Source of the DNA: Campylobacteraceae bacterium
Lineage (GTDB): Bacteria > Campylobacterota > Campylobacteria > Campylobacterales > Sulfurospirillaceae
Direction: 5' to 3'
Assembly (NCBI GenBank): GCA_027050775.1
Contig: JALUBH010000008.1
Span: forward strand, 1 to 37,056
Length of the DNA: 37,056 nucleotides
Shown here: positions 8,346 through 28,820 of the stretch, one piece after another
Position numbering within the stretch: the first letter of the stretch is position 1
Layout of the letters: every line of letters starts with the position of its first letter
Notes under the pieces: generated by a model
Database searches by the model: none
What the model saw: only the letters and a program-made list of their open reading frames with translations
What the model was told of the DNA's origin: nothing
Position numbers and translations under genes: made by a program

Positions 8346-8368
8346 ATGAATTATTATTCATAATTCTA
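8346..8368 (-). promoter_or_regulatory. Putative hyp operon promoter -10 and palindromic operator
   Basis: On the minus strand an extended -10 (TG-TAGAAT-like, 8363-8368) is followed by the perfect inverted repeat ATGAAT-TATT-ATTCAT (8346-8361). The repeat would lie near the transcription start, 18 bases before the hypB ATG. It resembles the TGAATATTCA palindromes at the hydA promoter. No clear -35 was seen. Confidence 0.4.
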
Positions 8369-10355: not shown

Positions 10356-10363
10356 AACATAAA

Positions 10364-12586: not shown

Positions 12587-14100
12587 ATTTGCCCTGAGTG
12601 TTTAAGTTGTCTTTTGTTAAAGTGTATATGGTTTTTTCTCTTTTCTATACTCTCTTGCTCATCAAATCTTAAAAATTTCGGCAGTTTTCTTGTCTTTATC
12701 ACGAGCAAATCTTTACTCATCACCTCTCTTAGCTCCTCTTTGCTTGCATACTCCATCTCTAAGATATACTCATACAACAACTTTGCAAGTCTATCAAGTG
12801 AAATCTGCCAAGTCGATAAAGTTTTAGCATATACCCACTCACTAAAACTAAAAAATCCATCATACACCCTACCGTCTCCAAAAAGATATTTAACACTTTT
12901 TTTGAAATTTCCACTGTTATATACCAAATCCCAAAATCTTGCAAATCTTTTCATTTTTTGCATCATTTCATAAGATATAAGATTGTTTTGCAAGATGTCA
13001 TAAGGAGGCTTATCACTATATTTCATACCAAAAATTTCGTCATGCCTGTCTATTGTTGTGCCTGAGAGTTTTTTTAATATACCGATTTGTATCTCGCACT
13101 TTGTCATGTTATATAATCTATCAAGATTTTTACCAAACCCCTCTAGACTTTCACCCGGCAATCCGACTATGAGATCTACATGTAGGTGTGCTTTTGTTTC
13201 ATTGTCTAAGAAATTTAGATTTCGCTGAATCTTTTCTATGTTTAATTTTCTATATATATTTTGCGAGATTTTCGGATCTAGTGTCTGGATACCAACTTCA
13301 AGCTGCAAAGAAGCAGGTGGAAAAAGTTTGATTCTCTCTTTGAGCGAACTGGGAAAGTTATCCGGTACCACCTCAAAATGTATAAAATATGGCGGCTTTT
13401 TTGAGAGAAAAAAATCCATAAACATATTTGCTCTCTCTATGCCTTGATTAAAAGTTCTATCTATAAATTTGAAACTTCTTACACCTCTATCCCATAAAAT
13501 TTGAAGCTCTTTTAAAAATCTTTGTATCTCTATATTTCTCACTTTTTTATCAAGCGATGAGAGGCAAAACTCGCACGAATACGGGCAACCTCTACTGGCC
13601 TCAACATATATATATCTATTTGCTACATCTTCATCACTATAGTATTTATAAGGAAGTTCTATCTTGCTTAAATCAACCATCTCAGCTTTTATGACTCTAT
13701 TTTTGGGTGGATTTTTATCATATATGTTTGCACACAACTCATAAAAAGCCACATCTCCTTCTCCTTGTATAAAATAATCCGATCCACTAAAATCAACCCT
13801 GTGTGGAAAGTAGCTTGCCTCCGGACCTCCTGTGATGATGACGACTTCGGGGGCCACTTTTTTGAGTATCTTTATAAAGTCTCCAACTTCTATGGCATTC
13901 CAGATATAAGCTCCTATGCCCACTATCTTTGGGCTCTCCCTCAAGATTTGTTCAACCGCATCTTCTATACTTGTATTTATGACAAATTCGATTATTTTTG
14001 CTCTGCCTTGTAACTCTTTTAGGTTTGCATAGATATACCTTAGTCCGATAGAGGTATGAAGATATCTGGCATTAAATGTGCAAAGTACAATCTGGCTCAA
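12583..14100 (-). CDS. B12-binding-domain radical SAM protein (DUF4080-type)
   Basis: The N-terminal B12-binding-like domain (about 1-125) includes VGIGAYIWNAIEVGDF and ITGGPEASYFP. The radical SAM core follows, with the cluster motif RGCPYSCEFC (Cys-x3-Cys-x2-Cys, about 170-177), a VGIQTLDPKI strand and HVDLIVGLPGE. The C-terminal 150 residues fit the DUF4080 extension of this family, whose substrates are unknown. The gene overlaps the PII-like gene upstream and hypF downstream by four bases each, so it is translated together with them. It is not a recognised hydrogenase or DIC-uptake component. It may modify a small molecule or a protein of this cluster, or be a passenger. Confidence 0.85.
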   Translation of the reverse strand: MSQIVLCTFNARYLHTSIGLRYIYANLKELQGRAKIIEFVINTSIEDAVEQILRESPKIVGIGAYIWNAIEVGDFIKILKKVAPEVVIITGGPEASYFPHRVDFSGSDYFIQGEGDVAFYELCANIYDKNPPKNRVIKAEMVDLSKIELPYKYYSDEDVANRYIYVEASRGCPYSCEFCLSSLDKKVRNIEIQRFLKELQILWDRGVRSFKFIDRTFNQGIERANMFMDFFLSKKPPYFIHFEVVPDNFPSSLKERIKLFPPASLQLEVGIQTLDPKISQNIYRKLNIEKIQRNLNFLDNETKAHLHVDLIVGLPGESLEGFGKNLDRLYNMTKCEIQIGILKKLSGTTIDRHDEIFGMKYSDKPPYDILQNNLISYEMMQKMKRFARFWDLVYNSGNFKKSVKYLFGDGRVYDGFFSFSEWVYAKTLSTWQISLDRLAKLLYEYILEMEYASKEELREVMSKDLLVIKTRKLPKFLRFDEQESIEKRKNHIHFNKRQLKHSGQI

Positions 14101-14408
14101 CTTTTTTTCGCCTTTGCTCTTATGGTATCACTCAAAAAAATAGCACCTGAGTGTTTTTGCAAAAAAGGCTCCAGACCAAGAGCTATATCTTCTGCTTTTT
14201 GAGGCTCAACGACGCTCATAAGCATAACCAAAGCATCCTCTTCATTAAACAGTAGATGCCCTTCATGAAAGCCGTGCTTTCCCATACCCTCAAGATTGTG
14301 AAAGATAGTGTATCCAGGTATCTCTATCTTGTCGAGTATCCTCTTTAGCATCTCAAGGTTTGAACCCTCTGTTATTATCTCCACTTTTGTCATCTTTTGC
14401 ATAATCAT
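14097..14408 (-). CDS. PII-like signalling protein linked to DabA
   Basis: A 103-residue protein with the ferredoxin-like alternating strands and helices of the PII/CutA-like superfamily: KVEIITEGSNLEMLKRILDK, then a variable loop rich in Gly/His (HNLEGMGKHGFHEGH) where PII proteins have the T-loop, then DALVMLMSVVEPQKAEDIALGL and a C-terminal helix. Small PII-like genes are known beside DIC-uptake genes in autotrophs. The predicted role is to bind a nucleotide or bicarbonate signal and gate DabAB. The start at 14408 has AAGGA six bases upstream and overlaps the dabA stop as ATGA. A later ATG (MTKVEI) lacks such a box. Confidence 0.78.
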   Translation of the reverse strand: MIMQKMTKVEIITEGSNLEMLKRILDKIEIPGYTIFHNLEGMGKHGFHEGHLLFNEEDALVMLMSVVEPQKAEDIALGLEPFLQKHSGAIFLSDTIRAKAKKS

Positions 14409-17400
14409 ATCATATCCTTAAACTCTATCTTTTTCCATCTTTGCAAATTTCCATCATAATAGAAAAATGCCTCCTCATCTCTGTCTATAAAAACCATCTT
14501 TATCCACTCATTATAGACCAACTCTGAAATCTTTTTTATCTTATCTATACTATGTCTGTATTTGCGAAAAGGTGCATCTATAAAAGTCAATAATCTTATA
14601 GGCTCGTGGTAAATCTCTCCTCTTTTATGCACACTTTGTGCAGCCAAACCCGTCCTTAAATCGCTCATATTTCCGCTTATCACACCAAATCTACCTACAA
14701 CATTATGATAAACTTTGCTCTCGCTCCCAAATGAGTGATTATCTAAAGACGAAAAGAAGTGCTCCATATTTATCCATTCACCGATAACAAGTGGCGCAGA
14801 GAGGATAATCTCCAGATAGTAGCCTAGCTTATCTTTAGTGTAGTCATAAGAGTGTAAAAAGACTCTATTGTCAAACTTTATGCCCCTGCTTATGTTTCTA
14901 GGGCCTATGATAAATGAGTGATTTGTTGCCAATCCCCACTCTGGTCTTGTCTGCGACCAGTCGTGTGCATTTTTCTTTATAAATTTCAAAGCTCTCTTTT
15001 TATTTATTTTTTTGGCAAAAGGCAATTTTTTAGCTCTTTGTAGCGCTGAATTTTCACTTGCAATATCTAGCTTTTTTTGTATTTCAATCAACTCTACAAC
15101 TCTTTTTGTCTCAACTCCTTGCGTGCAAAGTTGAACTTTATCTGTAACTGTATTGTGTAGGGCACTAACAAAAATCGTACCTTTTGGTATATTGATGTCT
15201 GGCTTCAACGCCTCTTGTATCTCTGGCTTGTTAAGTATATAGCTCAAAACTTTTGCATTTGTATCGCTACTTTTTCCTCCGCATGCTCCACAATCAAGTG
15301 CTGATTCATAGGGGTTGTTTTCAGACCTGCTCTCGTGCCCGCAAAATATAACAATCGGTGCAAAGTTTTCACTCAATCCTGTCAATTTTAGTGCGTTTTT
15401 GGCATAAAAGAGTTGTTCTTTAAATGTAAAACCGACTTTTGAAAGTAATTCTATATGTTTGGTTTTATAAAAATATGAGATTTTATACTCGTTTTGCAAC
15501 ATCTTTAAAAGTCGTACCTCTTCATAATGCATAAGATTCAAGCAAAGCGCCAAACTTGAAAATGGCTTAATTCTACCTTTTTGAAACTGCAAAATATCTT
15601 CATGTGAAGTAGCTATCTTTAAAAACTCCTCTAATTCCAAATCAAATTTGCTCACATCCAATGCAAAATTCTCTTTGATGGCAATTTTTGCGATCTCTTT
15701 TTGTAAAGATTCAATTTTACAGAACACTTCATCTTTGCTGTATTTATCAATCAAAAGTCCACCGCTATACTTTTGATTAAACAGTTTTTTTCTAAATGGC
15801 ATATATGAGTTCGCAAAAAGTGTCTTACCAAAAAAATCAAAACCAAATAAAAGACCTATCGTCTCAACTGTTATATAGGCTGACATAGTATTGTATTTTA
15901 AATCATGATATATATGTTTGAGTGCTTTTTTTAGTTTTCTACTCTGTTTTTCTTTTTCATCTTCAAATCTATAGACTATATTTTTTGGCTTAACAACAGC
16001 TGGGCAGAGGTTTGATTCCTGTTTTTTAGACATATCTATAAGTTTCAAAGGTATGCCGAAAAATCCGCCTATACCATAGGTTTCAAAATCTCCGCTCTCT
16101 TCTATATTTCTTCTTATGCTTTCGCTTCTGACATCTATACAAAAAAAGAGCTGTGCTTTAGGATTTGATAATTTTTGATTTTGTATATTAGGAAGCATAT
16201 CTCTCATCAAATCTTCTATATAGCCCTCTTCCATAGCCTTGAGCCAGATAAAACCTTCATACTCCTCAAATTCTGCCAAAACATCCAAAAGCCTGGCATA
16301 ATCTTCAAAATTCTCATTAAAATCTTTCAAAACAGCATATAGTGCTTGTGCACTTTTTTGTTTATAATTTTCATTATAGGCTACCATATAATCTTCATAT
16401 ATCTCATCTAGGGTATTTTTATACAAAGCCTTTTCGTATCTTTGTATAAATTCAGGCAGCATCCTCTGACTGTGGTACTCAATCCTTAAAAAGCTCTCTT
16501 TCTTGGCAAGCTCTTGTTTTAGTGCTAGAAAATCAGGAAAAAAACCTATCTTTTTTTCAATTTTCAAAAGGTACATGTAGAGGTAGTAAAGTCTTATAGC
16601 TAAAAAATCCTCTAAAAATGCCGGATATTTTCTCTGGTATAGATAGTCTTGATTTGTACTTCTCCACCTTAAAAAACCAGTCCAACCATGCAGCTTTCCA
16701 AACTGCAATACAAAAAACTCTTCCCACTCATCTTTTGGGATGTTGAGTCTGTTTAAAACCCAGTATATAACATCTTCTGGTTTATCACTTTGGGTCAAAA
16801 TCCTGCAAAGCTGAAGAGATTTGTCAAAAAATAGACTATCTTTTTTAATCAGTCTTCTCCACGAATAAAACATACCCTTGTCTTTATCCGCAGGTATCCA
16901 AGTTGCTTGTCCCTCATCAAGATGCCTCATAGCCATCTTATTTAATCTTTCGTTTATGTGCTCACAAATTTCACTTCCGTACAGCAAATCCAAAGCATCG
17001 CAAAAACCAAAATTGACTCCTAATTTTTGAGGACGACGAGAAGCACAAGTGCCATTTAGCCTCTCTTTTATAAATTTTATCTTTTCATTTTTAACTTTTT
17101 TGCTGGCATCAGACCTTTTTACATTTAAAAATATATGAAAAAACAGTCTCTCATATCTATCGTCCAAGTCTCTTTTTTTGCAGTAGTGTTTTATCTCTGA
17201 TCTTATGCTTTTAGGCTTTATCTTACCTTCCTCATAAAATTTAAAATACTCTTCTCTTGATAAAAATTTTCTATTATGAAAATATGTCCTAGCTTTACAA
17301 ATCGCCTTTTCAAAGTGCATATTCTCAAATCCATGTAGCGGATTATGGTGTATAAATGAGGTCATAGGCCAAAAATTATGAAAAAGATCAACAGCATTCT

Positions 17401-17446
17401 CTATCAGTGAATTGATATATAAAATCTCCCTGTTTGAGACAATCAT
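14405..17446 (-). CDS. dabA: DabA, carbonic-anhydrase-like subunit of the DAB inorganic carbon accumulation complex (DUF2309/UPF0753)
   Basis: Cytoplasmic, membrane-associated zinc protein proposed to hydrate CO2 vectorially to bicarbonate when coupled to DabB. The zinc/active-site set known in Halothiobacillus DabA is visible: Cys436 and Asp438 in FFCIDVRSE, His704 in FCGHESRSE and Cys719 in LDCGACGG, with the same internal spacing (2 and 15). At 1013 residues it is longer than the roughly 830-residue Halothiobacillus protein and belongs to the long form. The start shares four bases with the upstream small membrane protein. The gene is in the hyd-dab-hypF array, downstream of dabB. Confidence 0.95.
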   Translation of the reverse strand: MIVSNREILYINSLIENAVDLFHNFWPMTSFIHHNPLHGFENMHFEKAICKARTYFHNRKFLSREEYFKFYEEGKIKPKSIRSEIKHYCKKRDLDDRYERLFFHIFLNVKRSDASKKVKNEKIKFIKERLNGTCASRRPQKLGVNFGFCDALDLLYGSEICEHINERLNKMAMRHLDEGQATWIPADKDKGMFYSWRRLIKKDSLFFDKSLQLCRILTQSDKPEDVIYWVLNRLNIPKDEWEEFFVLQFGKLHGWTGFLRWRSTNQDYLYQRKYPAFLEDFLAIRLYYLYMYLLKIEKKIGFFPDFLALKQELAKKESFLRIEYHSQRMLPEFIQRYEKALYKNTLDEIYEDYMVAYNENYKQKSAQALYAVLKDFNENFEDYARLLDVLAEFEEYEGFIWLKAMEEGYIEDLMRDMLPNIQNQKLSNPKAQLFFCIDVRSESIRRNIEESGDFETYGIGGFFGIPLKLIDMSKKQESNLCPAVVKPKNIVYRFEDEKEKQSRKLKKALKHIYHDLKYNTMSAYITVETIGLLFGFDFFGKTLFANSYMPFRKKLFNQKYSGGLLIDKYSKDEVFCKIESLQKEIAKIAIKENFALDVSKFDLELEEFLKIATSHEDILQFQKGRIKPFSSLALCLNLMHYEEVRLLKMLQNEYKISYFYKTKHIELLSKVGFTFKEQLFYAKNALKLTGLSENFAPIVIFCGHESRSENNPYESALDCGACGGKSSDTNAKVLSYILNKPEIQEALKPDINIPKGTIFVSALHNTVTDKVQLCTQGVETKRVVELIEIQKKLDIASENSALQRAKKLPFAKKINKKRALKFIKKNAHDWSQTRPEWGLATNHSFIIGPRNISRGIKFDNRVFLHSYDYTKDKLGYYLEIILSAPLVIGEWINMEHFFSSLDNHSFGSESKVYHNVVGRFGVISGNMSDLRTGLAAQSVHKRGEIYHEPIRLLTFIDAPFRKYRHSIDKIKKISELVYNEWIKMVFIDRDEEAFFYYDGNLQRWKKIEFKDMI

Positions 17447-18183
17447 ACTAAACCTTTCATGCCAAAAAAGACAAAAGATATAAAAGAGGACAAAAGCATA
17501 AAAATCAATAAAACAGTTTGAAAACCGCTTAAATCCATATATATCACATCTCTTCTATATCTGCCATATATAAGCCACTCTATGAGTTTTATTGAGCTCC
17601 AGTTTAGAAAGATCCAAGATACAATCAACAAAATACCATAAAGGAGAGGAAGCTTTGAAAACTCTAATTCTAAAATCTCATACCCCAGGAAAAATAGTGA
17701 CGAAGACAGCCCAAGCAGCGATAATATAAAGAAGATAGAAAATCTTGGCATCACACTTCCGATGCCGCTTATAGTCTTTTGATGGATAACATCAAATTTT
17801 TCACTTAAAAAAACAAAAAGCACTAGCAAGGAGATTAAAACAGGAATCTTAACTGCCAAAAACTCTATCAAATCACCACCGACTACATGCCACAAGATAG
17901 ATACACCAGAAATCACAGGATAAAGATACAAGATAAAACTCTTTAAGTTGTTTGCTCCAAGTAGTCTGAAGCTGTAAAACAAAATAGTCAAGACCGCCAT
18001 AAAAACCAGAATTTTTGAGTTGATATTTGTATATGACAAAAGTATATTGCCACTAGTAAATAAAATAATCATAACGATAGCAAATAATTTTGGTTTAAAA
18101 ATTGCCAAAAACCTATTTGTAAGTAAACTAAAGGGAAATACTGGAAGTAGTAGTAAAACAACTATGACATAAAAAGCATTCAT
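17443..18183 (-). CDS. Small membrane protein between dabB and dabA, resembling half of a complex I-type antiporter subunit
   Basis: 246 residues, nearly all hydrophobic, with about seven or eight predicted membrane helices. The stretch SVMPRFSIFFILSLLGLSSS (about 144-163) resembles the helix of NuoM/NuoL-type antiporter subunits that reads like MPRLALFFLLFSLASLGLP, which suggests a shortened, diverged antiporter fold. It begins in the last base of the dabB stop and ends overlapping the dabA start, so all three are translated as a unit. It is therefore a strong candidate for a third membrane component of the DAB complex in this lineage. This role is inference; no characterised homologue is recognised. 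Confidence 0.65.
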   Translation of the reverse strand: MNAFYVIVVLLLLPVFPFSLLTNRFLAIFKPKLFAIVMIILFTSGNILLSYTNINSKILVFMAVLTILFYSFRLLGANNLKSFILYLYPVISGVSILWHVVGGDLIEFLAVKIPVLISLLVLFVFLSEKFDVIHQKTISGIGSVMPRFSIFFILSLLGLSSSLFFLGYEILELEFSKLPLLYGILLIVSWIFLNWSSIKLIEWLIYGRYRRDVIYMDLSGFQTVLLIFMLLSSFISFVFFGMKGLV

Positions 18184-19862
18184 CAGTATTTCATCCTAAA
18201 ATTTATAAAACTAGCAAGCTCAACCATCTTTTTTGATACAGAGCTAGAAAAATCAAGTATATAAAATTCTCTACTAAAAACTCTATATATAAAATCATAT
18301 AAATCAGAAAATTTTGATAAAACAGAGCTGTTGTGGACTAGGCTTTGATATGCAAAAATCCATGCAGAAACAACCATAGTAACAACGATACCAAAAATCA
18401 TAAAAAATGTAGCATCAGCCCAAGATGCCGACTCAAACAAAGCTTTAAAAAGCCCTTTATCAGGATATAAAACCGTACCGAAAAAGTGCTCTGCTCCTAT
18501 ATAGACAAAGAGCGCAAGGGCGAAACCGATATTGGTAAAAAACAGAGCCTTAAACCTTTTGCGTGTATGGTACACGCTATATACAATCTGTGCTCCGCTA
18601 ACCCATGCAAAAAGATAAAAAAGTATAGTACTTTGAAATGAATTGTCTTTAAAAAGAGGCGAAAAAATAGACCCTGTTATAACTATAGGTACTATAAAAA
18701 CAAACAGTAGATATTCGAAAAAAGATGGTTTTTTATATTTTATCTTTGAAAAAAATATATCAAAGATGGAGTGTTTATCTATGTTTTCATCTTCTCTTGC
18801 TTCATGTATAACACCGCCTGAACCCAAAAACAAAGATGCTTTGAAGATGCCATGTATCATCATGTGATATATCGCTAGAGCAAAAGCCCCTGCTCCAATT
18901 TCAAGCATCATATAACCCATCTGACCAACTGTCGAGTATGCAAGTGCCTTTTTTATATCATTTTGCATAAGCATCATGGATGAGCCTAGTATGGCAGTTA
19001 TAAAACCTATCACAAGGGCTACATGTAGAGCTATTTCACCATGTATAAATAGAGGTGCAAATCTATTGGCTATAAATGCACCTGCATTTACTATGCCAGC
19101 ATGCATGAGAGCTGATACAGGATTTGGTCCCTCAAGCGTAAAAGGAAGCCAAATATGAAAAGGAAATTGTGCTGATTTTATGATGGCTGAGATGATGATA
19201 AAAAGTGATATGAGCGATGCGACAGATATGCTTGTATTTGTAAAATATATATCTTTTTTAACTGAAACCATATCTAAAAAGAGTTTTAGATCCGTAGTAT
19301 GATAAAAATTGTAAATGAGATACAGAGCTATCAAAAATGGAATGTCAGCCAAAAGATGGGTAAAAAGCGTATAAAATCCATACCTGTAAGTCTGTTTTTT
19401 TCTAAAATTATGAACGAGAAGAAAATACAACACAACACCCATCATATGCCAAAAAGCTGCAATTAGAATGATATTTCCAACATTTAAAAGTCCAAAGATG
19501 ATGAAAATCATCAAATCCAAAAGCACAAAATATCTAACATAACCTTCATCATCATACATGTATTTGACTGAATACAAATGTATAATCAAAGAGACAAGAG
19601 AAACAAAAAATGTTACAACTACGCTCAATGGCGTGACATACAAAGAAAAAAGAGTTTGAGGAAATATGCTCACATGCGAGCTATTTCCTAAAAAAAATGT
19701 AACCAAATAGATAAAAGAGGAAAAAGATGTTACAAAAGAGAGACTGATTGAGATTTTATATATATCCGCCCCAATCTTTTTAAAACTGCCTATTATAGCC
19801 GCAGAGGAGATAATAGGTGTAAAAAATGAGATAAGAGCAAAAACTACCACAAACTTTTCCAA
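18183..19862 (-). CDS. dabB: DabB, proton-translocating NuoL/MrpA-like membrane subunit of the DAB complex
   Basis: Integral membrane partner of DabA, thought to couple cation flow to CO2 hydration. About 14 hydrophobic segments are seen. The antiporter core motif FPFHIWLPFTLEGPNPVSAL with MHAGIVNAGAFIANR (about 230-265) includes the conserved Lys just before it (IKSAQ) and matches the NuoL family. The start is a TTG at 19862 preceded by GGGGA. No ATG is well placed. It lies 40 bases after the hydE stop, with no obvious terminator or promoter between them, and abuts the small membrane protein. Without dabA close by this would be annotated as an NADH dehydrogenase-like subunit; context makes DabB the better call. 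Confidence 0.9.
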   Translation of the reverse strand: MEKFVVVFALISFFTPIISSAAIIGSFKKIGADIYKISISLSFVTSFSSFIYLVTFFLGNSSHVSIFPQTLFSLYVTPLSVVVTFFVSLVSLIIHLYSVKYMYDDEGYVRYFVLLDLMIFIIFGLLNVGNIILIAAFWHMMGVVLYFLLVHNFRKKQTYRYGFYTLFTHLLADIPFLIALYLIYNFYHTTDLKLFLDMVSVKKDIYFTNTSISVASLISLFIIISAIIKSAQFPFHIWLPFTLEGPNPVSALMHAGIVNAGAFIANRFAPLFIHGEIALHVALVIGFITAILGSSMMLMQNDIKKALAYSTVGQMGYMMLEIGAGAFALAIYHMMIHGIFKASLFLGSGGVIHEAREDENIDKHSIFDIFFSKIKYKKPSFFEYLLFVFIVPIVITGSIFSPLFKDNSFQSTILFYLFAWVSGAQIVYSVYHTRKRFKALFFTNIGFALALFVYIGAEHFFGTVLYPDKGLFKALFESASWADATFFMIFGIVVTMVVSAWIFAYQSLVHNSSVLSKFSDLYDFIYRVFSREFYILDFSSSVSKKMVELASFINFRMKY

Positions 19863-19902
19863 AAAATCCCCATTTTTTGTTTTATTATATCAAAAATTAT
19901 GG

Positions 19903-21594
19903 TTATTTTAGGTTATCTATCGGTAATTCTTGGTTAAAATATATCTTATGATTTGGCAAAAGATTTTTAGCGACTAACTCTGCTACTAGTGGATACCCAA
20001 AGAGTGAGCCTCCGAGTGTAATCTTGTTGCTTCCTAGTGTCTCTTTGTGTGAATCCGCCATGTCCGAAACAAAGTATGAAAAGCTTTCCAAAATACCAAA
20101 ACTAAGAGTCATATCATCTGCACCTGCTAGCTTAAAACTCATCGCACTTTGCAAAAGTCTATATGGATTAAAAGTAGAATTTATTTTACTTTCATCTTCT
20201 AGCTTAAAGTCTATCCTGACACCTTTTTGTCCACCGAAATCTTCTGCTTTTTGTATTAAAGTATCAGCAGCCGTTTTGAAATCATCTGAAAATCCAACAA
20301 CCATAGAGACAAATCTCAGTGTATTAAAAAGATTATTAGCAAGTCTTTTTGGAATTTTGATTCGCTGTATGGATTTATAAAGTTTAGGATATGTTTTTTT
20401 GTAGTTATCTATGAGCCTTTGTGCGCTATCATTTTCATTTTTTATATGGCTAAACAACTCTCTTACGCTAGAAAAAGTTGGAAATTTAACCAAAGTGAGC
20501 AAACTTCTCTCTTCATCATGATACATCACGGCATCATCATATTTTTTACTAAAGTAAAAACAGCTCGCTTTATCTTCGAACAATTCTCTCTCTTTCAGAA
20601 TTGACACAAATTGTCTTTGTGCCCGATCTCGTAGCTTTTTAAGGTTATTTTTGGACGAAGAAGAGTCAAATCCATCACTATTTAGAACAAAAATTTCTCC
20701 ATTTTCCAAAATAGAAATTTCTATAGTCGAGATTTTAGGAATATCCGCATCGTAGCTTAAAAAGCTTGCATACTCCGCCTCATCACTACTTTTTGCTATA
20801 AACTCCACACCACTTTTATATAACTCTTCACATATAAAGAGCAAAAGAGGTATATTTGGCATTGAAATTTTAACTCTTAAGGTTGGTAATATATCTAGTG
20901 ATTCATATACCATATTTACCTTTGCTCGCATAACAGGCTTCTCCAATGAGGCTAAGGCTTGTAACTCATTTTCTCCTATATTTGCCATTTTTTGAACCAA
21001 TGAGAGATCTGTCGGCACGATTTCAAAACTCTCTATGCCTTCAAAAGCCCCTTTTTGGACTCTAAAAAAAACAAAATCACCATTTGGAGTTTTTATCTTT
21101 ACTCTTTTACCGCTTTTAATCAAGTTTGCTACGCTTTTATACATATCACTATACCCATCCGAACCGCTTGCAACGATAAGTCCACTACTGTCTTCAAGAC
21201 TTAGAGATATCTTTTGAAATACTTTTGAAAATCCAACTTCATTTGGAACAAAAGGTGATTTGTAGAAAAAAGAGCCTTTATCTTTTGCTGACTCTATAGC
21301 TTTTTTTGTAAAAGGCAAAGAGATGGCAGTATCCGTAAAATCTAACTCTTTGCCTTTGATGCTAGTTGTTACTTTAGCATTAGAGGATTTTAAAAAAATA
21401 GACAGAGGAAGACTTGAAGAGAGAAAATCAGCAAATTCATGTTGCCTTTGCTCATCTTCGTCTATATAGAGTGTAGTTATGTTTTTCTCTTTGCAAATTG
21501 TATATTTTGCCCCAAACTCTTCGCTAATATTTTTTAAAAAACTCTCTAATACCAAATTTTTTGATACATACTCAAATTTATACTCTAATATCAT
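19903..21594 (-). CDS. hydE: HydE-type hydrogenase maturation protein of Campylobacterota
   Basis: Large soluble protein (563 residues) at the fifth position of a hydABCDE operon, as in Wolinella and Helicobacter, where HydE is required for active hydrogenase. No classical motif can be pointed out. The sequence alternates alpha/beta segments, with a Cys in the FICEELYKSGVEFIAKS region and a C-terminal domain starting near FVSMVVGFSDDF and ending GGSLFGYPLVAELVAKNLL. It follows hydD by seven bases. The identification rests on gene order and length, with moderate sequence recognition. It is not related to the radical SAM HydE of [FeFe] hydrogenases. Confidence 0.8.
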   Translation of the reverse strand: MILEYKFEYVSKNLVLESFLKNISEEFGAKYTICKEKNITTLYIDEDEQRQHEFADFLSSSLPLSIFLKSSNAKVTTSIKGKELDFTDTAISLPFTKKAIESAKDKGSFFYKSPFVPNEVGFSKVFQKISLSLEDSSGLIVASGSDGYSDMYKSVANLIKSGKRVKIKTPNGDFVFFRVQKGAFEGIESFEIVPTDLSLVQKMANIGENELQALASLEKPVMRAKVNMVYESLDILPTLRVKISMPNIPLLLFICEELYKSGVEFIAKSSDEAEYASFLSYDADIPKISTIEISILENGEIFVLNSDGFDSSSSKNNLKKLRDRAQRQFVSILKERELFEDKASCFYFSKKYDDAVMYHDEERSLLTLVKFPTFSSVRELFSHIKNENDSAQRLIDNYKKTYPKLYKSIQRIKIPKRLANNLFNTLRFVSMVVGFSDDFKTAADTLIQKAEDFGGQKGVRIDFKLEDESKINSTFNPYRLLQSAMSFKLAGADDMTLSFGILESFSYFVSDMADSHKETLGSNKITLGGSLFGYPLVAELVAKNLLPNHKIYFNQELPIDNLK

Positions 21595-21601
21595 AATTTA
21601 T

Positions 21602-22141
21602 TCACCTGTATTTTGCGCAGGCTTTATCTGCTACGCTTTGTATATCTATATCTTTTTTTATCTTGCATCTAAACCCAAGCTCTTTTATATGCTTGAGAAA
21701 TATCTTTTCCATAAGTTCACTGCCTTTTTTTACTGCTTCGCTCATACTAAGCGTAGTGATACTTACAACTTCGGGTATAATTCCGATTATTTTGGTTGGT
21801 GGTCTATCGCCTACCATATCCATCATATTTAGAGTTTGCAGCATTTCGACTTCATGAGCACTTCCTTGAAATGATATAGAATCTGGAATGTTTTCAAAAT
21901 CAAAAAAGTAAACATCTCCAATTTTACCGTCATTTGCATCAACACAATCAAATACCAACAGATAATCATATTGTGAGATGATGGGAATCAGCCTTTGGGC
22001 CAATGTCCCACCGTCTATAAAATCAAGTGAATGTTTATCGGAGTAAAACTCATATTTTTCTTCTAAAAGGTGACAAAGATGCACCCCAATACCTTCATCA
22101 GAAAACATCACATTACCAATTCCAAGAATTAAAATCTTCAT
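21602..22141 (-). CDS. hydD: Hydrogenase maturation endopeptidase HydD (HyaD/HupD family)
   Basis: Nickel-dependent protease that removes the C-terminal extension of the large subunit after nickel insertion. The N-terminus ILGIGNVMFSDEGIGVHLC is the family signature, with Glu16 as a metal ligand. The Asp of VFDCVD and the His of GSAHEVEML are the other expected ligands. At 179 residues it is normal in size. It starts two bases after the hydC stop. Its substrate is expected to be HydB, which has a 20-residue extension. The cytosolic large subunit at 25955-27298 has no extension and would not need it. Confidence 0.93.
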   Translation of the reverse strand: MKILILGIGNVMFSDEGIGVHLCHLLEEKYEFYSDKHSLDFIDGGTLAQRLIPIISQYDYLLVFDCVDANDGKIGDVYFFDFENIPDSISFQGSAHEVEMLQTLNMMDMVGDRPPTKIIGIIPEVVSITTLSMSEAVKKGSELMEKIFLKHIKELGFRCKIKKDIDIQSVADKACAKYR

Positions 22142-22143
22142 GA

Positions 22144-22836
22144 TTATTTTTCAGACTCCGGAATCTCCCATTTGTATCCACTCACAATAGAATCAATAGT
22201 GCCTTCTTTTCCATACACAGCATTAAATACAGACATATAAACATGCGCTATGATAAATATAATAACTCCCCAAGTCAAAACATGGTGGATTTCTCTCACG
22301 CTAGCGAGTCCACCAAACATAACTTCTAAAGATGTGAGAGGTGTATTTAAAATAGATAAAAAACTGTTATGAAAATCATGCATGTACAGTATCAGTCCTG
22401 TCAGTATCAAGAACAAAAGCATTATATACAATCCAATATAGGCAAAAAGCTGTATAACATTGTATGCGCCGCTCAAAATTGGATGCTTTCCTATAAAGAG
22501 ATAGTATCCTATCTGTTGCATCCATTTTTTTATACTAAAAAGATCTTTAAATGACCTTATTTCCTCCCTATCTGACTTAACAAAAAAGAAATAGTAAATT
22601 TTTCCTATAAACATGGAGATTAAAACAAAACCTGCTATCTCATGAAATGTCCTTCCTTGAGCATATAAAAATCCTGTTGGATTTGAATCAACTTCTGGAG
22701 TTAAAAATGGATAAGATATGTAAAATCCACTAACTATCAAGAAGTTGATAGCAAAAAATCTTATCCAATGATGCCACCTAAAAAAAGGCGAAAATTCCAT
22801 ATGTCTTTTAACAAATAAATCTTTAAATTTTCCCAT
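22144..22836 (-). CDS. hydC: Ni/Fe-hydrogenase b-type cytochrome subunit
   Basis: Di-heme membrane cytochrome that takes electrons from HydA and reduces menaquinone. Four membrane helices are apparent (about 25-45, 63-85, 120-145 and 185-210). Candidate heme ligands are in the expected places: His22/His23 (FRWHHWIRF), His65 (RTFHEIAGF), the His pair in REIHHVLTW and the His of FIIAHVYMSVF, matching the pattern described for Wolinella HydC. The gene starts nine bases after hydB. It supports a periplasm-facing, quinone-reactive group 1 hydrogenase. Confidence 0.95.
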   Translation of the reverse strand: MGKFKDLFVKRHMEFSPFFRWHHWIRFFAINFLIVSGFYISYPFLTPEVDSNPTGFLYAQGRTFHEIAGFVLISMFIGKIYYFFFVKSDREEIRSFKDLFSIKKWMQQIGYYLFIGKHPILSGAYNVIQLFAYIGLYIMLLFLILTGLILYMHDFHNSFLSILNTPLTSLEVMFGGLASVREIHHVLTWGVIIFIIAHVYMSVFNAVYGKEGTIDSIVSGYKWEIPESEK

Positions 22837-22845
22837 AACTACTCC

Positions 22846-24567
22846 TTAACAAAAACAGCTTAAATCGACTTTATACTCACTTAGCTCATTGCCCTTTGTG
22901 TCCATCAAATGTACGGCACATGCGATACATGGATCAAAAGAGTGTATAACTCTTATGATTTCAAGTGGTTCAGAGAGATCTAGAATTTTCAGACCCACTA
23001 AAGACTCTTCGTATGGACCTCTGTTGTCTCTTGCATCTTTAGGCCCGGCATTCCAAGTTGATGGTACAACAGCCTGCCAATTCTCTATAACCCCATTTTT
23101 GATTCTAGTCCAATGGCTAAGCATTCCTCTTGGTGCATTTCCTATAAATCTTCCCTTATACTCTTTTGTTGTATCTATATGGTAAGTTGTGTAAGTAGAA
23201 TCATCAACCTTAAGATTTTGAATAAGAGAATTAAAAGCTTCAAGTCCATTATCTGCGATAATCTTAGCTTCGAGCATACGGGTAGCTGTTCTTCCAAGTG
23301 TAGAAAACACCGCTTTGAGTGGAATTCCCGCATCTTTTAGGAATTGGTCAACAACTTTTATGACTTTCTTGTTGCCTTTTGCATAGTTTATAACTATATT
23401 TGAAAGAGGACCAACTTGCATAGGCTTTTCATCATATCTCGGTGATTTTATCCAAGAGTATTTCTTGTTCTCTTTTATGACCTTAGTATTTTCTAGCTCT
23501 CCCTTGCCATTAATCGTTTGAGCATCTTTAAAGCCGGTATATTTTGGATTTGTTTTCCCATCATATGGGTGTAAAGGCTCATCATCAGCATACCAGGAGT
23601 GTGTCGCTTCTTCTGTTATTTTATCTTCATCTATATCATAAACTTTTGATATGTCACCTCCAAGTATAACTCCACCATCAAATAAAAATTCACTGCTACT
23701 GAGTTGAAACTCTCTTGATGTCATCAAATTTGCAGTTCCAAGACCTGCATTTACACTAGGCTCCGTAACATACGCTTTGGCAGCCATAACCAAATCAGGA
23801 TAATATGCACGATTTACAAAATCTGCCATCTCTTTAAATTTTGTTAAAAACTCACCAAGTCGTGCTGGATCTTGAAGATCCATGATACAAGTAACTCCAC
23901 CGACTGTAAGACTCTGAGGATGAGGATTTTTTCCACCAAAAATCGCCATCATTTGGGCAGCTAATCTCTGCATCTCTAAAGCTTTTAGATAGTGTGAAAG
24001 AGCTATAAGATTTTGCTCGGGAGTAAATCTATAAGTTTTATGTCCCCAATAAGCATTTGCAAATGGTCCAAGATTTCCTTTTTTTACAAATTCACCTACT
24101 CTCTTAAGCGTCTCCACTAAATCATCAGCTCCACATGCCATAGGATTTGAGCTATATTTAAACGCTTCATCTGCTGCTTTATGAGGATCTGCTTTTAAGG
24201 CAGATACAACATCTACCCAATCAAGTCCATGGAGATGATAAAAATGAACTGTATGGTCGTGTAAATAAAGTGCCATGTTCATCAAGCTTCTTACTAATTT
24301 AGCATTTAAAGGAGGATTTATACTTAGTGCATCTTCAACCGCAATAATTCCTGCTCTATAGTGAGAATATGTACACACCCCACAAATTCTCTGTGTAAAA
24401 AAACCTGCATCTCTTGGATCTCTTCCTTTTAAAATAGTCTCTATACCTCTCCATAAAGTTGAAGACGAGTATGCTTCCTGTACAACATTGTCATCATCTA
24501 CAACTACTTCTATTCTTAAATGTCCTTCTATCCTTGTGATAGGATCTACTACTACTCTTTTTGACAT
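22846..24567 (-). CDS. hydB: [NiFe] hydrogenase large subunit (quinone-reactive, group 1)
   Basis: Catalytic subunit with the Ni-Fe(CN)2CO centre. Both Cys motifs are present: RICGVCTYSH near residue 60 and DPCIACAVH at 545-553. After His553 a 20-residue extension ends in DLSCFC, to be removed by HydD. The N-terminus DPITRIEGHLRIEV is typical. At 573 residues it has normal length. It begins four bases after hydA, is exported with HydA through the Tat system as a complex, and faces the periplasm. The overall likeness to Wolinella and Helicobacter HydB is strong. Confidence 0.97.
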   Translation of the reverse strand: MSKRVVVDPITRIEGHLRIEVVVDDDNVVQEAYSSSTLWRGIETILKGRDPRDAGFFTQRICGVCTYSHYRAGIIAVEDALSINPPLNAKLVRSLMNMALYLHDHTVHFYHLHGLDWVDVVSALKADPHKAADEAFKYSSNPMACGADDLVETLKRVGEFVKKGNLGPFANAYWGHKTYRFTPEQNLIALSHYLKALEMQRLAAQMMAIFGGKNPHPQSLTVGGVTCIMDLQDPARLGEFLTKFKEMADFVNRAYYPDLVMAAKAYVTEPSVNAGLGTANLMTSREFQLSSSEFLFDGGVILGGDISKVYDIDEDKITEEATHSWYADDEPLHPYDGKTNPKYTGFKDAQTINGKGELENTKVIKENKKYSWIKSPRYDEKPMQVGPLSNIVINYAKGNKKVIKVVDQFLKDAGIPLKAVFSTLGRTATRMLEAKIIADNGLEAFNSLIQNLKVDDSTYTTYHIDTTKEYKGRFIGNAPRGMLSHWTRIKNGVIENWQAVVPSTWNAGPKDARDNRGPYEESLVGLKILDLSEPLEIIRVIHSFDPCIACAVHLMDTKGNELSEYKVDLSCFC

Positions 24568-24571
24568 TTAT

Positions 24572-25726
24572 CTACTCCTTCGGTTTTTTTATAATAGATA
24601 TTGCAGCGTGTGCGGCTATACCCAATGCTGTAACAGTGAGTATTGTGGCACCTATCTTGTCTGCTGTTGCATCGGCACCCAAGCCTCTAAATACGCTATG
24701 GTACAACCGATCTGCCAAAGGCATCTCAAACGGTCCCATTTTATCCCAAAAATCAGGTTCGCTACAACCGATACAACCATGCCCGGCTTCTATAGGCCAA
24801 GAGGTATGTTGGTTAAATCTCTCTCTTGAACAGTTATTAAATGTATAAGGACCTTTACACCCCACCTTATACAAACAGTACCCTTTTTTGGCACCTTCGT
24901 CACCAAACTCTTGCACAAATTCTCCCGCATCAAAGTGACCTCTTCTCTCACATTGGTCGTGAATTCTTTTGCCGTAAGACCATTTAGGACGATTGTATGC
25001 ATCTAGTGCAGGAAGTGTTCCAAAGAGTATATAATGAAGTACATTTCCTACTATATTTCTTGAACTTGGAGGACAACCCGGTACATTTATGACAGTTTTT
25101 TGTGTAACTTTGTGTAGAGGTTGAGCATTTGTTGGATTTGGGGCAGCTGCTTGAATTCCACCAAAACTAGAACATGTACCTATAGCAAATATGGCCAAAG
25201 CACTCTGCGCTGCCTCTTTTGCGTGGGATTCTCCTGTCTGCCCCTGAGGTCCGGCAGTAAGGTAAAAGCTGCTTTCACCTGCAGGTATGCCTCCCTCCAC
25301 CATCAATATATATCTTCCTTTGTATTTTTTGATTGATTCTTCTAGTATTTGTTCAGCTTGCCAACCGGCTGCTGCCATAAGTGTTTCATGATACTCTAGT
25401 GAAATATAATCAAATATCAGACTATCTATCGTAGGCGCAGCACTTCTAAGCAAACTTTCACTACAGCCTGTACACTCCGCCATATGCAACCATATCACAG
25501 GCAACCTGTCGGACAACTCCGCAGCTTGCGCCATCAATGGTGTAAAAGATGCCGGAAGTGATAACATGGCAGTTATACTAGCAGCCCATTTCATAAAATC
25601 TCTTCTTGAGAAACCATGCTCTTCCAGTAGAGACGAAATCGATTTGCCATCATCTTTCATCCTTGGAAATTTCGAAAGCTTACCCAGTCTATCGCTTAAA
25701 CTTTGGTACAATTTTTCTTGCTCCAT
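24572..25726 (-). CDS. hydA: [NiFe] hydrogenase small subunit with Tat signal
   Basis: Electron-transfer subunit with three Fe-S clusters. A long N-terminal region precedes the twin-arginine motif SRRDFMK (Arg41-Arg42), a hydrophobic segment and an AQAA cleavage site near residue 69. The proximal cluster motif is CTGCSES (Cys85, Cys88) with GTCSSFGG and PGCPPS. The C-terminal cluster Cys residues lie in CERRGHF, CLYKVGC, FNNC and GCIGCSEPDF. A C-terminal helix (about 355-375, LTVTALGIAAHAAISII) anchors it in the membrane. AAGGAG is six bases before the ATG. It is the first gene of the hyd array; upstream palindromes suggest regulation by the nearby TetR protein. Confidence 0.97.
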   Translation of the reverse strand: MEQEKLYQSLSDRLGKLSKFPRMKDDGKSISSLLEEHGFSRRDFMKWAASITAMLSLPASFTPLMAQAAELSDRLPVIWLHMAECTGCSESLLRSAAPTIDSLIFDYISLEYHETLMAAAGWQAEQILEESIKKYKGRYILMVEGGIPAGESSFYLTAGPQGQTGESHAKEAAQSALAIFAIGTCSSFGGIQAAAPNPTNAQPLHKVTQKTVINVPGCPPSSRNIVGNVLHYILFGTLPALDAYNRPKWSYGKRIHDQCERRGHFDAGEFVQEFGDEGAKKGYCLYKVGCKGPYTFNNCSRERFNQHTSWPIEAGHGCIGCSEPDFWDKMGPFEMPLADRLYHSVFRGLGADATADKIGATILTVTALGIAAHAAISIIKKPKE

Positions 25727-25738
25727 TCAACTCTCCTT

Positions 25739-25771
25739 AATATTTATTCACTATATAAATGAATATTTATT
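25739..25771. promoter_or_regulatory. Imperfect palindromic operator near the hydA transcription start
   Basis: The 33-bp region contains ATTCA-N9-TGAAT with extended AT-rich symmetric arms and an AATGAATATTTA half close to the AATGAATATTCA of the stronger upstream site. It would lie between the inferred transcription start and the ribosome binding site of hydA. Confidence 0.45.
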
Positions 25772-25781
25772 TACTATTGAA

Positions 25782-25810
25782 ATTAAAGCATAATTTTTCT
25801 TAAAAAACAA
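25782..25810 (-). promoter_or_regulatory. Putative hydA promoter
   Basis: On the minus strand TTGTTT (25805-25810), 17 bases and an extended -10 TGC-TTTAAT (25782-25787) are seen. The start point would be near 25775, about 50 bases before the hydA ATG. The -35 is weak and touches the palindrome at 25811-25841. Confidence 0.4.
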
Positions 25811-25841
25811 GTGAATATTCATTTATCGAATGAATATTCAC
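25811..25841. promoter_or_regulatory. 31-bp perfect palindrome, probable TetR-family operator
   Basis: GTGAATATTCATT-TATCG-AATGAATATTCAC has 13-bp perfect arms and a 5-bp spacer, directly upstream of the -35 of hydA. This size and symmetry are typical for a dimeric TetR-family site. A TetR gene lies at 28224-28808. About 110 bases between this site and the end of the second hydrogenase operon hold no gene. A small AT-rich inverted repeat near 25910-25925 (CAATAT-AATA-ATATTG) is there but is not a convincing terminator. Confidence 0.7.
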
Positions 25842-25954
25842 TTTAATGGGTAAAAAAGTAGCACTATTGGTTTAAAATGAGTAGTTTTTCTTAAGTTTCA
25901 CATAAGCAATATAATAATATTGTGACTATTTTAAGTTAGGTATTTATAATTGAT

Positions 25955-27298
25955 CTATTGTGTAGTACAAACTGAACATATATCAAAAGTTTTAAAAACA
26001 AAATCAGCCTTTTGCACAGTATCAAGTCCTATAATCGCTTTTTGTGCAACAGAAGGGTTTTTTGGGCTTCCATTGCCAAGATTCCATACTGTAGGGGGGA
26101 TAATATCATATTTTTTTATCATGCCCTCTTCTACTTCTATCTTGTGCATAAGCGTACCTCTTGCAGCTTCAACTACGCCGATACCCTCAGAGCTAATATG
26201 TTTAGGCATAAACTTTGGAGCTTGAAGAGATTTTTCTTTTATGTTTATACTTTTGAGTAGATATTGAGATCTTTTCAATAAGATAGCTATCTCTTTTACT
26301 CTAGCAGTAATTCTTGTTATAACCGAATCTGCACATCTCCTATGGCAGTCTCGTATCATAGTATCTTTGCTTATCATCAGTCTTGCGAGTGGTCCAACCT
26401 CATAAAAATCATTTTTATATATAGCACTTTTAGAGTAAGTAAATCCACTTTTTTTATCTTCAAAAAAACTGTTTTTTAAACTCTCTTCAACAAACTTGAT
26501 ATTTGCACGGTACAATCTAGTTTTTATCGCTTTTGTAGGCTCTTGTATGCCTTGGTTCTCTCCAAAAGATATAAATCTGTCATAACTCCTGCCAATCTCA
26601 TTAAAACCTATCTCTTTCATATATGTTATAGCTATATCTAAAGTAGAGTCAAAATTAATCAAATCAGATATGGAATCTAACTCTAAAAACTCATCTATAC
26701 TACATCCAAAAAGTCTCTCTTCACAGAAATCATATACATTTGATAAAAAACTCTGTGCATTTGATATATCACTAGAAAGTGGGTCGCATGTGACACCGCC
26801 CGTCATAACATAAGAGCCGTGTGGCCACTGACCTGAAAAAATCGCACCCATTTTCAATATATCACTTAAAGCTTTTTGAGCTTCAAACCACTCTTTATCT
26901 TTGAAAGGCACAGTTGCAACAAACTTGCCTCTGTTTATCTTAAATAGCTCAGGTAGTATTGAAAAATAGAACCATTTTATATGATTTTGAATTTTTTCTG
27001 CATTTAAAACAAGCTCTCTAATCTTTTTGGCTTTTTCTGTCATATCAAGATTTACACCGATATTTTTATAGCAATCCTCAATAGCAAGGATAGTTGCATT
27101 TACATGTGAATGAGAACAGATACCACAAACTCTTGGGGTTATCATCAAAGCATCCAAAAGATGTCTTTGTGTCAAAATATCTTCGATAGCCCTATAATTT
27201 AAAAATTTGATTTTTGCATAAGATATCCTACTCTCTTTCCACTCTAATTCAAGTGTAGCTTCACCCTCTATACGCTCTATAATCTCTTTAGTTATCAT
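25955..27298 (-). CDS. Cytosolic [NiFe] hydrogenase large subunit (group 2-like)
   Basis: Second Ni-Fe subunit, 447 residues, clearly shorter than HydB. The first Cys motif is RVCGICSHSH, and ERIEGEATLEL opens the protein. The second motif is DICSVCTTQ at the very C-terminus: Cys441 and Cys444 are kept, but the usual Pro is Ile, the final His is Gln, and no extension follows. No maturation protease is therefore required, as in HupV/HoxC-type and related cytosolic hydrogenases. It overlaps the small subunit gene by four bases. It is probably a group 2 enzyme (2d is the likely subgroup in Campylobacterota) that reduces a soluble carrier or senses H2. Physiological direction cannot be read from sequence. 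Confidence 0.88.
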   Translation of the reverse strand: MITKEIIERIEGEATLELEWKESRISYAKIKFLNYRAIEDILTQRHLLDALMITPRVCGICSHSHVNATILAIEDCYKNIGVNLDMTEKAKKIRELVLNAEKIQNHIKWFYFSILPELFKINRGKFVATVPFKDKEWFEAQKALSDILKMGAIFSGQWPHGSYVMTGGVTCDPLSSDISNAQSFLSNVYDFCEERLFGCSIDEFLELDSISDLINFDSTLDIAITYMKEIGFNEIGRSYDRFISFGENQGIQEPTKAIKTRLYRANIKFVEESLKNSFFEDKKSGFTYSKSAIYKNDFYEVGPLARLMISKDTMIRDCHRRCADSVITRITARVKEIAILLKRSQYLLKSINIKEKSLQAPKFMPKHISSEGIGVVEAARGTLMHKIEVEEGMIKKYDIIPPTVWNLGNGSPKNPSVAQKAIIGLDTVQKADFVFKTFDICSVCTTQ

Positions 27299-28185
27299 CC
27301 CATTAACCTCTTTTCAAGTCTCTCTATCTTAAAACTTTTCGCCACTCCTGTTATGGAGTAGTAAGCTCTCTTACTTACCCCAACCGGTGTGGCTGGAAGA
27401 GACATATACTTCTTGGTTTCATACACATTGTCTCTTGGAAAATCAGGCTCGGTACACCCTAAACAAGGTGACCCTGCTCTTGTCTTAGAGCTAACTTCAT
27501 TCCAGAGGATTTTATTGCAGTTTGCATGTGTCATGGGACCTCTGCAACCATGGTCATAAAAAAGGCATCCCTCTTTCTCACCAAAGCTTTTTGTATCTAT
27601 CTTCCATTCGAAATATTCATTTCTCATACAACCATGATGTACAAAATAAGAGTAGACTTCTTTTGGTCTAAGATACTCATCCAACAATGGTTCCCTGCCC
27701 TCTTTCAGCGCAAAAAGAGTGTCAACCAACCATTTTGGATGAAGTGGGCATCCGGGTATATTTATGACTTTGTGATTTTTATCCCAATATCCGCCTTTTT
27801 TGTCTCCACTATAGAGTGCTCCGCTTATATTTTTTTTATCCCTTTCTCTAAAAATTCCCCCAAAACTTGCACAAGTTCCGGCACAAATGATATATCTTAC
27901 CTTTTTAGCCAAATTGTCAATCAACTCGCCAAAGCTGTATCCAGATCTATCGACATAGTCTTTAACTTTTGTAAAAGAACCCTCTACGATCAAATAATCA
28001 TAACTATCATCACTATTTAAAATATCTTTTAAATTATAATTGCCGACAAGTAGAGGGTGATAAACAATATCGAAGTTTTTGGCAAAACTCTTCATTTGCG
28101 AGTAGTTAAAAAAAGAGTGGGAATCGCCATTGCAAGTAATCCCCTGAATCCAAACGATACTCTTTTTAAGTTGAATTTTAGACAT
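27295..28185 (-). CDS. Cytosolic [NiFe] hydrogenase small subunit without Tat signal
   Basis: 296 residues starting directly with MSKIQLKKSIVWIQGITC; no twin-arginine signal and no C-terminal anchor, so the enzyme stays in the cytoplasm. The proximal cluster motif is CNGD (Cys18, Asp21) where most small subunits have CxxC. The other ligands are in AGTCASFGG and PGCPLHP. The later Cys/His set is HHGC, GCLFYDHGC, HANC and PCLGCTEPDF. It lies 38 bases after the TetR gene and overlaps the large subunit gene, so the three probably form one operon. Asp/Asn replacements at this position are known in some uptake hydrogenases and change cluster properties. Confidence 0.9.
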   Translation of the reverse strand: MSKIQLKKSIVWIQGITCNGDSHSFFNYSQMKSFAKNFDIVYHPLLVGNYNLKDILNSDDSYDYLIVEGSFTKVKDYVDRSGYSFGELIDNLAKKVRYIICAGTCASFGGIFRERDKKNISGALYSGDKKGGYWDKNHKVINIPGCPLHPKWLVDTLFALKEGREPLLDEYLRPKEVYSYFVHHGCMRNEYFEWKIDTKSFGEKEGCLFYDHGCRGPMTHANCNKILWNEVSSKTRAGSPCLGCTEPDFPRDNVYETKKYMSLPATPVGVSKRAYYSITGVAKSFKIERLEKRLMG

Positions 28186-28223: not shown

Positions 28224-28808
28224 TTAAGTTTTTAGAGCTCTGTATATATTTTCGGATATATCATCCACATAATTTTCAAGCTTATCATCAAGAATACCCT
28301 CTCCATTTAAGAACACAAAGCCCCCTAGATACCCCATAAAAAGACCAAAGGCAGAGAAAAAGTTTTGATTTCTAAGTTCTTTTCTTCTAACTCCCTCTTC
28401 AAAAAATATCATAAGCTCAGTAACAAAAGCAGCGACACAGACCATACCTTCACAGCCATCTTTGAAAATCTCCTTGTTTGAAAGATATACTCTAAGAAAA
28501 AATTCTAGATGTTCAGGTTGCTCTATCGCCATTGTAAAGTATAATTTTACAATTTCATGTATCTTCTTTCTTGTATTAATATTTTGTTCGTTAATGACTC
28601 TTATCTTTGCACCCAATATATCAGAAGAGTATCTAATGACGCTTCTTGCCAACTCTTCTTTGGAGGAAAAATAGTTATATAAATTTCCAACACTCATATC
28701 CATAGCTTTCGCAATATCGGGTATAGTTGTACTGTAAAAACCTTTTTTTGAAAATAAAACCAGCGATTTTTCAAGTATGAGCTCAGTCTTTTTAAGTTTC
28801 TTATTCAA
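28224..28808 (-). CDS. TetR-family transcriptional regulator next to the cytosolic hydrogenase
   Basis: N-terminal TetR DNA-binding domain: LILEKSLVLFSKKGFYSTTI, then PDIAKAMDMSVGNLYNYFSSKEELA forming the helix-turn-helix (about residues 10-55), followed by an all-helical ligand domain. An ORF start at 28820 (TTG) is possible, but GGAG six bases before the TTG at 28808 favours the latter, giving about 194 residues. It is the first gene of a likely operon with the cytosolic hydrogenase. The perfect palindrome upstream of hydA is its most likely target. No copy of that palindrome was seen in front of the TetR gene itself. The ligand is unknown. Confidence 0.9.
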   Translation of the reverse strand: MNKKLKKTELILEKSLVLFSKKGFYSTTIPDIAKAMDMSVGNLYNYFSSKEELARSVIRYSSDILGAKIRVINEQNINTRKKIHEIVKLYFTMAIEQPEHLEFFLRVYLSNKEIFKDGCEGMVCVAAFVTELMIFFEEGVRRKELRNQNFFSAFGLFMGYLGGFVFLNGEGILDDKLENYVDDISENIYRALKT

Positions 28809-28820
28809 TTTTAACTCCAA

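Follow-up and report, generated by a model that had tools for sequence, protein, structure and literature searches.

A TetR-family regulator coded beside a sensor-like hydrogenase and its predicted operators at the hydrogenase promoters of Campylobacterota

Introduction

How do free-living Campylobacterota control their uptake hydrogenase, and what does the cytosolic hydrogenase encoded next to it do? No regulator of the uptake hydrogenase in these bacteria was found in the literature searched, and for the cytosolic group 2d hydrogenase of Campylobacterota two roles are under discussion, supply of reductant for carbon fixation and regulation. Both questions are raised by a single locus on a 37,056-nucleotide stretch of DNA (the window), which comes from a genome of 2.19 Mb in the family to which Sulfurospirillum belongs. 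The initial annotation, made from the sequence of the window, had proposed that two palindromes around the hydA promoter are sites for a TetR-family protein. Here this proposal is examined by comparison with related genomes.

The locus and its palindromes

On the minus strand of the window the genes follow the order tetR, hupS, hupL, hydA-B-C-D, a hydE-like gene, dabB, a membrane gene, dabA and hypF. The proposed repressor, a protein of 198 aa, is encoded by tetR (28224-28820, minus strand). The genes hupS (27295-28185, minus strand) and hupL (25955-27298, minus strand) encode the small and large subunits of a cytosolic, sensor-like hydrogenase. The first gene of the membrane-bound hydrogenase operon, which is the proposed target of regulation, is hydA (24572-25726, minus strand), and its product has a Tat signal. 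The rest of the apparent operon (9768-24567, minus strand), whose extent was judged from gene spacing, holds hydB, hydC, hydD, the hydE-like gene, dabB, the membrane gene, dabA, further genes and hypF. The palindromes lie in the hupL-hydA intergenic region.

The larger of them is a perfect inverted repeat at 25809-25843. It had been described as a perfect palindrome of 31 bp with 13-bp arms; it is indeed perfect, but it spans 35 bp, with arms of 15 nt and a loop of 5. It is the longest perfect palindrome of the window, and in 20 rounds of dinucleotide shuffling applied to the whole window the longest arms were 8-14, compared with 15 in this repeat. A -35-like TTGTTT overlaps its edge, in keeping with the contact to the putative -35 that had been reported. 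The predicted extended -10 of the hydA promoter, TGCTTTAAT (25782-25790, minus strand), lies between two palindromic elements, and the second, imperfect palindrome that had been placed in the hydA leader was found at 25756-25773, just downstream of the -10. The 12-mer RTGAATATTCAY occurs at 3 places in the genome, two at the palindromes and one across the sucC start codon; this last copy is explained by coding.

Comparison of the hydA upstream regions of relatives showed that the repeat unit is a 14-bp dyad, TGAAT-R-NN-Y-ATTCA, which is written TGAATRNNYATTCA as a scan pattern and reads TTGATTTAATACTAAATGAATAATCATTCAG in an example from Sulfurospirillum. The unit first named, TGAATATT, has to be given up, as sister genomes keep the 14-bp dyad and not that core. 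Their upstream copies read TGAATTATTATTCA or TGAATTTATATTCA, so that the 10-bp TGAATATTCA core is broken while the dyad is retained, and the 10-bp unit was rejected as the true repeat for this reason. Position 6 is R in 62 of 63 distinct hydA sites and position 9 is Y in all 63, and both positions are outside the letters of the search pattern. The recognition helix of TetR, MSVGNxYNYF, is near-invariant, corresponding to this extended conservation of the dyad. Such conservation agrees with binding of the site by a TetR dimer.

Three or four copies of the dyad surround the window promoter, each with one mismatch. Predicted operators A (TGAATATTCATTTA, 25812-25825) and B (CGAATGAATATTCA, 25827-25840) each match 9 of the 10 fixed bases of TGAATN4ATTCA, and the 35-bp palindrome arises because these two dyads are adjacent. 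Sister genomes have a dyad at the same place as A; both A and B are extra to the conserved position and confined to the window's genus. Predicted operator C (TGAATATTTATTTA, 25760-25773, 9/10) begins 8 nt downstream of the hydA -10, and its position is kept across the whole family. A possible fourth, weak site (TTAATATTTATTCA, 25737-25750, 9/10) is close to the hydA ribosome-binding site.

The long palindrome could also serve chiefly to end the tetR-hupSL transcript as an intrinsic terminator, with its operator match secondary. Read on the minus strand it fits a weak terminator of this kind, with a 15-bp stem (-16.6 kcal/mol, z -5.8) followed by GTTTTTT, and it is the sole terminator-like match in the region. 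However, the stem has only 3 G-C pairs, three sister loci (L036, L039 and L070) have kept the dyads and not the T-run or the long hairpin, and operator C and the family-wide sites lie outside the terminator-like hairpin. A mainly terminating role is improbable, and terminator and operator roles can coexist in the same palindrome.

The TetR regulator

The N-terminus of TetR carries a TetR_N helix-turn-helix (PF00440, E = 3.2e-14), and its AlphaFold model (pLDDT 89) has the all-helical TetR fold. The best Foldseek matches to the model are RutR and FadR, and these and others score at E about 1e-6 and TM about 0.75. RutR and the FadR of Bacillus have the fold and the helix-turn-helix domain in common with TetR, and their operators are very similar, but the proteins are about 16-21% identical to it in structural alignments and their gene contexts differ. 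The operator of Bacillus FadR is close to TGAATGANTANTCATTCA.

Of 397 genomes sampled from the class, 114 have an ortholog of TetR (53-93% identical), and nearly all members of two families (f2 and f3) are without one. Among named genomes it was found in Sulfurospirillum, Sulfurimonas, Sulfuricurvum, Sulfurovum, Nitratiruptor, Nitratifractor and also Arcobacteraceae. HupL was found in 108 genomes, 107 of which also have TetR; in the one HupL-only genome (G321) the locus stops at a contig edge. The gene order tetR-hupS-hupL-hydA is retained in nearly all. Judged from these genomes, TetR is coded beside a sensor-like hydrogenase across most free-living Campylobacterota. Other apparent TetR-only or HupL-only genomes were mostly threshold or contig-edge effects, and only two, G038 and G182, are truly without hupSL. 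Both retain TetR and the operator; HupSL may be dispensable, or the losses may be recent. In G038 a degenerate remnant of the hupL end (L076:8588-8902) is all that lies between tetR and hydA.

Variations in the surroundings of tetR have also been observed. At four loci of the window's genus (L066, L067, L068 and L069) tetR stands directly before hypF and not hupS, still among hydrogenase genes. A second TetR paralog, 43-44% identical, occurs in the same genus (L095, L096 and L097); the L096 paralog is divergent from a rhodanese-like gene, is near selD-like genes, and has TGAATGAATATTCA in its promoter. Plasmids of Sulfurimonas paralvinellae and Sulfurovum mangrovi (L251 and L252) carry the tetR-hupSL-hyd module with its sites, and the module may move as a unit.

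The site follows the regulator

Sixty hydA promoters, nearly all from outside the first set of loci, were compared for dyads within 300 bp. A perfect dyad precedes hydA in 26 of 29 genomes with TetR and in 1 of 31 without it (Fisher p = 1.6e-12, a value that ignores kinship, as related genomes are not independent of one another). The three remaining TetR-positive promoters each match 9 of 10 positions, and shuffling leads one to expect 0.035 perfect dyads among the 29. The same pattern is seen within one genus (g12), where four genomes (G349, G166, G267 and G147) have neither TetR nor dyad and five (G362, G341, G371, G323 and G397) have both. A decayed site, TGAATAATCATGTA, persists in two genomes of Sulfurospirillaceae that have no TetR (G013 and G027). 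In G035 the operator is kept and TetR is absent, and in family f5 and in genome G039 TetR and hupSL are present with no clear dyad before hydA. Many promoters of family f7, taken as Arcobacteraceae from matches and gene layout, have two sites about 68-80 bp apart. The proposal that the palindromes are TetR sites is upheld by the way the dyad tracks the hupSL-linked TetR, class-wide and also within genera. TetR very probably binds the dyads in front of hydA, which are its predicted operators.

Could the palindromes serve a different regulator, such as the other two TetR proteins, NikR, Fur or a sigma-54 activator? The window genome does encode candidates, two more TetR proteins and a minimum of two sigma-54 activators, and in H. 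pylori Fur and nickel control hydABC (PMC6682613). The dyad, however, is present with the hupSL-linked TetR and disappears with it, a pattern that holds within genera as well, and the recognition helices of the other two TetR proteins differ. This explanation is very unlikely.

For the hupSL-linked TetR, the position of the site is informative as well. In Sulfurospirillaceae the dyad usually begins 5-8 nt after the extended -10 TGNTTTAAT, an element kept in most relatives within the family, and it therefore covers the transcription start. This is where repressors sit, and TetR very likely represses the hyd operon. The control of this operon together with the dab genes, which had been suggested at the outset, follows from the site position and from dab lying downstream in the operon. 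Autoregulation was rejected as the main role of TetR, as most tetR-hupSL promoters are without the site. The predicted operator, its regulator and the repressor position are established by comparison.

The predicted wider regulon

In six genomes all perfect dyads were placed and then split by the R/Y rule. Those that obey the rule are all intergenic (17/17), and those that break it are inside genes in 10 of 17 cases. Eleven of the 17 obeying dyads lie before a first or second hydA, before hypB or before a gene for a nickel transporter. The hydA share of this result is partly circular, since hydA sites were the source of the rule; the sites at hyp, nickel and nrf genes are independent of it. 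One further dyad is at nrfHA, and the others are at chemoreceptor or sensor genes, at a TetR paralog, or have nothing clear downstream. Unfiltered whole-genome counts of the pattern are at background, and they become informative only once the rule is applied. With 11 of 17 sites at hydrogenase or nickel genes, the initial annotation's concern that the palindrome might be found mostly at unrelated genes is answered.

In one Arcobacteraceae-like genome (G362) a perfect dyad is located 74 bp before nrfHA (L290:4262-4275), and this agrees with the published H2 induction of nrfA in Arcobacter butzleri (PMC12286921). Two genomes also have a perfect dyad before a chemoreceptor (MCP) gene, at a distance of 58 bp in one (L299:3853-3866) and of 35 bp in the other (L286:2213-2226), hinting at a link between the regulon and chemotaxis.

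The window itself has a candidate site, TGAATTATTATTCA (8347-8360), before hypB, whose start is likely near 8328. Its ten fixed bases match and one half breaks the R/Y rule; the hyp/nickel promoters of three other genomes have full sites. The case for a full operator at the window hypB is weak. In each of the genomes G358 and G292, which belong to different families, a divergent zinc-ribbon gene shares the nickel/hyp site. These zinc-ribbon genes are homologous (62% and 38% identity) to the window ORF 8433-9089, a zinc-ribbon gene with no Pfam match that is divergent from the hyp/nickel operon, and the window candidate is at the same junction.

HupSL as a sensor or an enzyme

HupS has no Tat signal. 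It is 31% identical to C. necator HoxB and shorter (295 aa vs 347), and the alignment stops at HoxB residue 327 of 347, so HupS is without the C-terminal tail of HoxB (its last ~20 residues). Every HupL read ends in FD-x-C-x-VC-xx-(H/Q) with no extension (DICSVCTTQ in the window), like C. necator HoxC, which ends RSFDPCMVCTVH with nothing after CxxCxxH. HydB of the window, by comparison, has an extension after its CxxCxx motif. The missing C-terminal extension is a mark of regulatory hydrogenases. HupSL also resembles HupUV/HoxBC, whose large subunits are about 26% identical to HupL, in being a cytosolic [NiFe] protein coded beside the uptake hydrogenase that it would control as a sensor.

The partners are different. 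HupUV/HoxBC work with the HupT/HoxJ kinase and HupR/HoxA, whereas the partner of HupSL is a TetR one-component repressor. There is no kinase or NtrC-type regulator gene beside hupSL at the locus, and a HoxJ search of the window genome gave matches to the generic kinase region alone. NtrC-type regulators and many histidine kinases are encoded elsewhere in the genome, which has two strong sigma-54 activator domains, neither near the hupSL-hyd locus. The earlier suggestion that TetR replaces the HupT/HoxJ-HoxA pathway fits the lack of a kinase beside hupSL and of the HoxB tail in HupS, and TetR may have taken this place. The TetR-HupSL pair is set apart from the HupUV/HoxBC systems because the kinase partner and the tail are missing. 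On this comparison the pair would be a new form of hydrogenase control, working in the manner of the HupUV/HoxBC sensors.

The HupSL/HuaSL proteins of Campylobacterota have been placed in group 2d of the [NiFe] hydrogenases, the Aquifex hydrogenase III type, and the group 2d assignment of HupSL used here is from the same work (PMC12286921, PMC5401914). The published role of group 2d is CO2-fixation reductant or unknown, but the strict TetR pairing and the operators found here argue for regulation. HupSL has been proposed as a reductant source for the reductive TCA (rTCA) cycle (PMC5401914; PMC2628731). A tie through ATP-citrate lyase was considered and rejected: the two share 76 genomes, but the lyase was undetected in 37 of 113 HupL-positive genomes and present without HupL in 43, a far looser association than that with TetR.

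It could still be that TetR represses as proposed and answers to its own ligand or to a redox/thiol cue, with HupSL an enzyme that merely shares the operon, for example as the rTCA-cycle feeder hypothesised previously (PMC5401914). TetR has a C-x4-C motif (GCEGMxC, residues 123-128) in its effector domain, which is kept in 82 of 83 distinct orthologs and lies in a flexible loop of the model; it is a candidate sensing or docking site at which such a cue could act. The paralogs of 43% identity have retained a related Cys pair and lie by rhodanese- and selD-like genes, with no hupSL, and the two genomes that have lost hupSL keep TetR and the operator. Set against this, HupL virtually never occurs without TetR, in contrast to its loose link with ATP-citrate lyase, its C-terminus is of the sensor type, and huaSL goes down when H2 is supplied (PMC12286921). 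An enzyme that only shares the operon is unlikely, though a serious competitor to HupSL as the sensor.

Published expression data

When Arcobacter butzleri hDNRA1, a strain outside the genomes read here, was given H2, its two hynAB sets went up 2.3 to 6.2-fold, nrfA went up 4.0-fold and huaSL went down; electron donor and nitrite reduction change along with H2 in this comparison (PMC12286921). The response matches the predicted regulon, nrfHA included. In a Sulfurospirillum strain hynAB showed no difference between H2 and formate, a source of H2 in its own right (PMC12286921). Expression of hydB in S. multivorans is close to constitutive, with an H2 effect of at most about twofold that is not significant, and transcripts of hupL do not rise above the detection limit (PMC5357620). 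The constancy of hydB is hard to square with a strong H2 switch in S. multivorans, unless internal H2 keeps the switch on. It was suggested by Kruse et al. in 2017 that TetR represses hupSL (PMC5357620); the target there is hupSL, whereas the conserved site found here is before hydA.

Proposed mechanism

It is proposed that without H2 a TetR dimer would sit on operator C, across the transcription start; in the window's genus A and B, which lie upstream of the promoter, would be occupied as well. Bound TetR would block the hydABCDE-dab-hypF operon. Cytosolic HupSL, built like a regulatory hydrogenase, would sense H2, and its signal, passed by direct contact or by electron transfer, would release TetR; C-x4-C is perhaps the target of the electron transfer. 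In related genomes the predicted regulon would also include hyp/nickel-uptake genes and second uptake hydrogenases, and nrfHA in one genome. The whole chain, in which TetR repression of hyd would be relieved by H2 through HupSL, is reasonably probable. The more specific proposal is tentative, with chances a little below even. It holds that HupSL is an H2 sensor that gates TetR directly, with no kinase or phosphorelay between them, and that this class-wide switch governs the uptake hydrogenase and nickel/hyp maturation, joined in some lineages by nitrite ammonification and by chemoreceptor genes.

Conclusions

With a conserved operator, a regulator that can be named and a predicted regulon, both the role of the cytosolic hydrogenase and the regulation of the uptake hydrogenase become testable. 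If HupSL gates TetR, the H2 switch would be simpler than the known kinase systems. It would also be widespread among bacteria that dominate hydrothermal vents and sulfidic habitats, and could be used as an H2 biosensor. The TetR-HupSL pair points to an undescribed bacterial way of turning on hydrogen metabolism when hydrogen is present.
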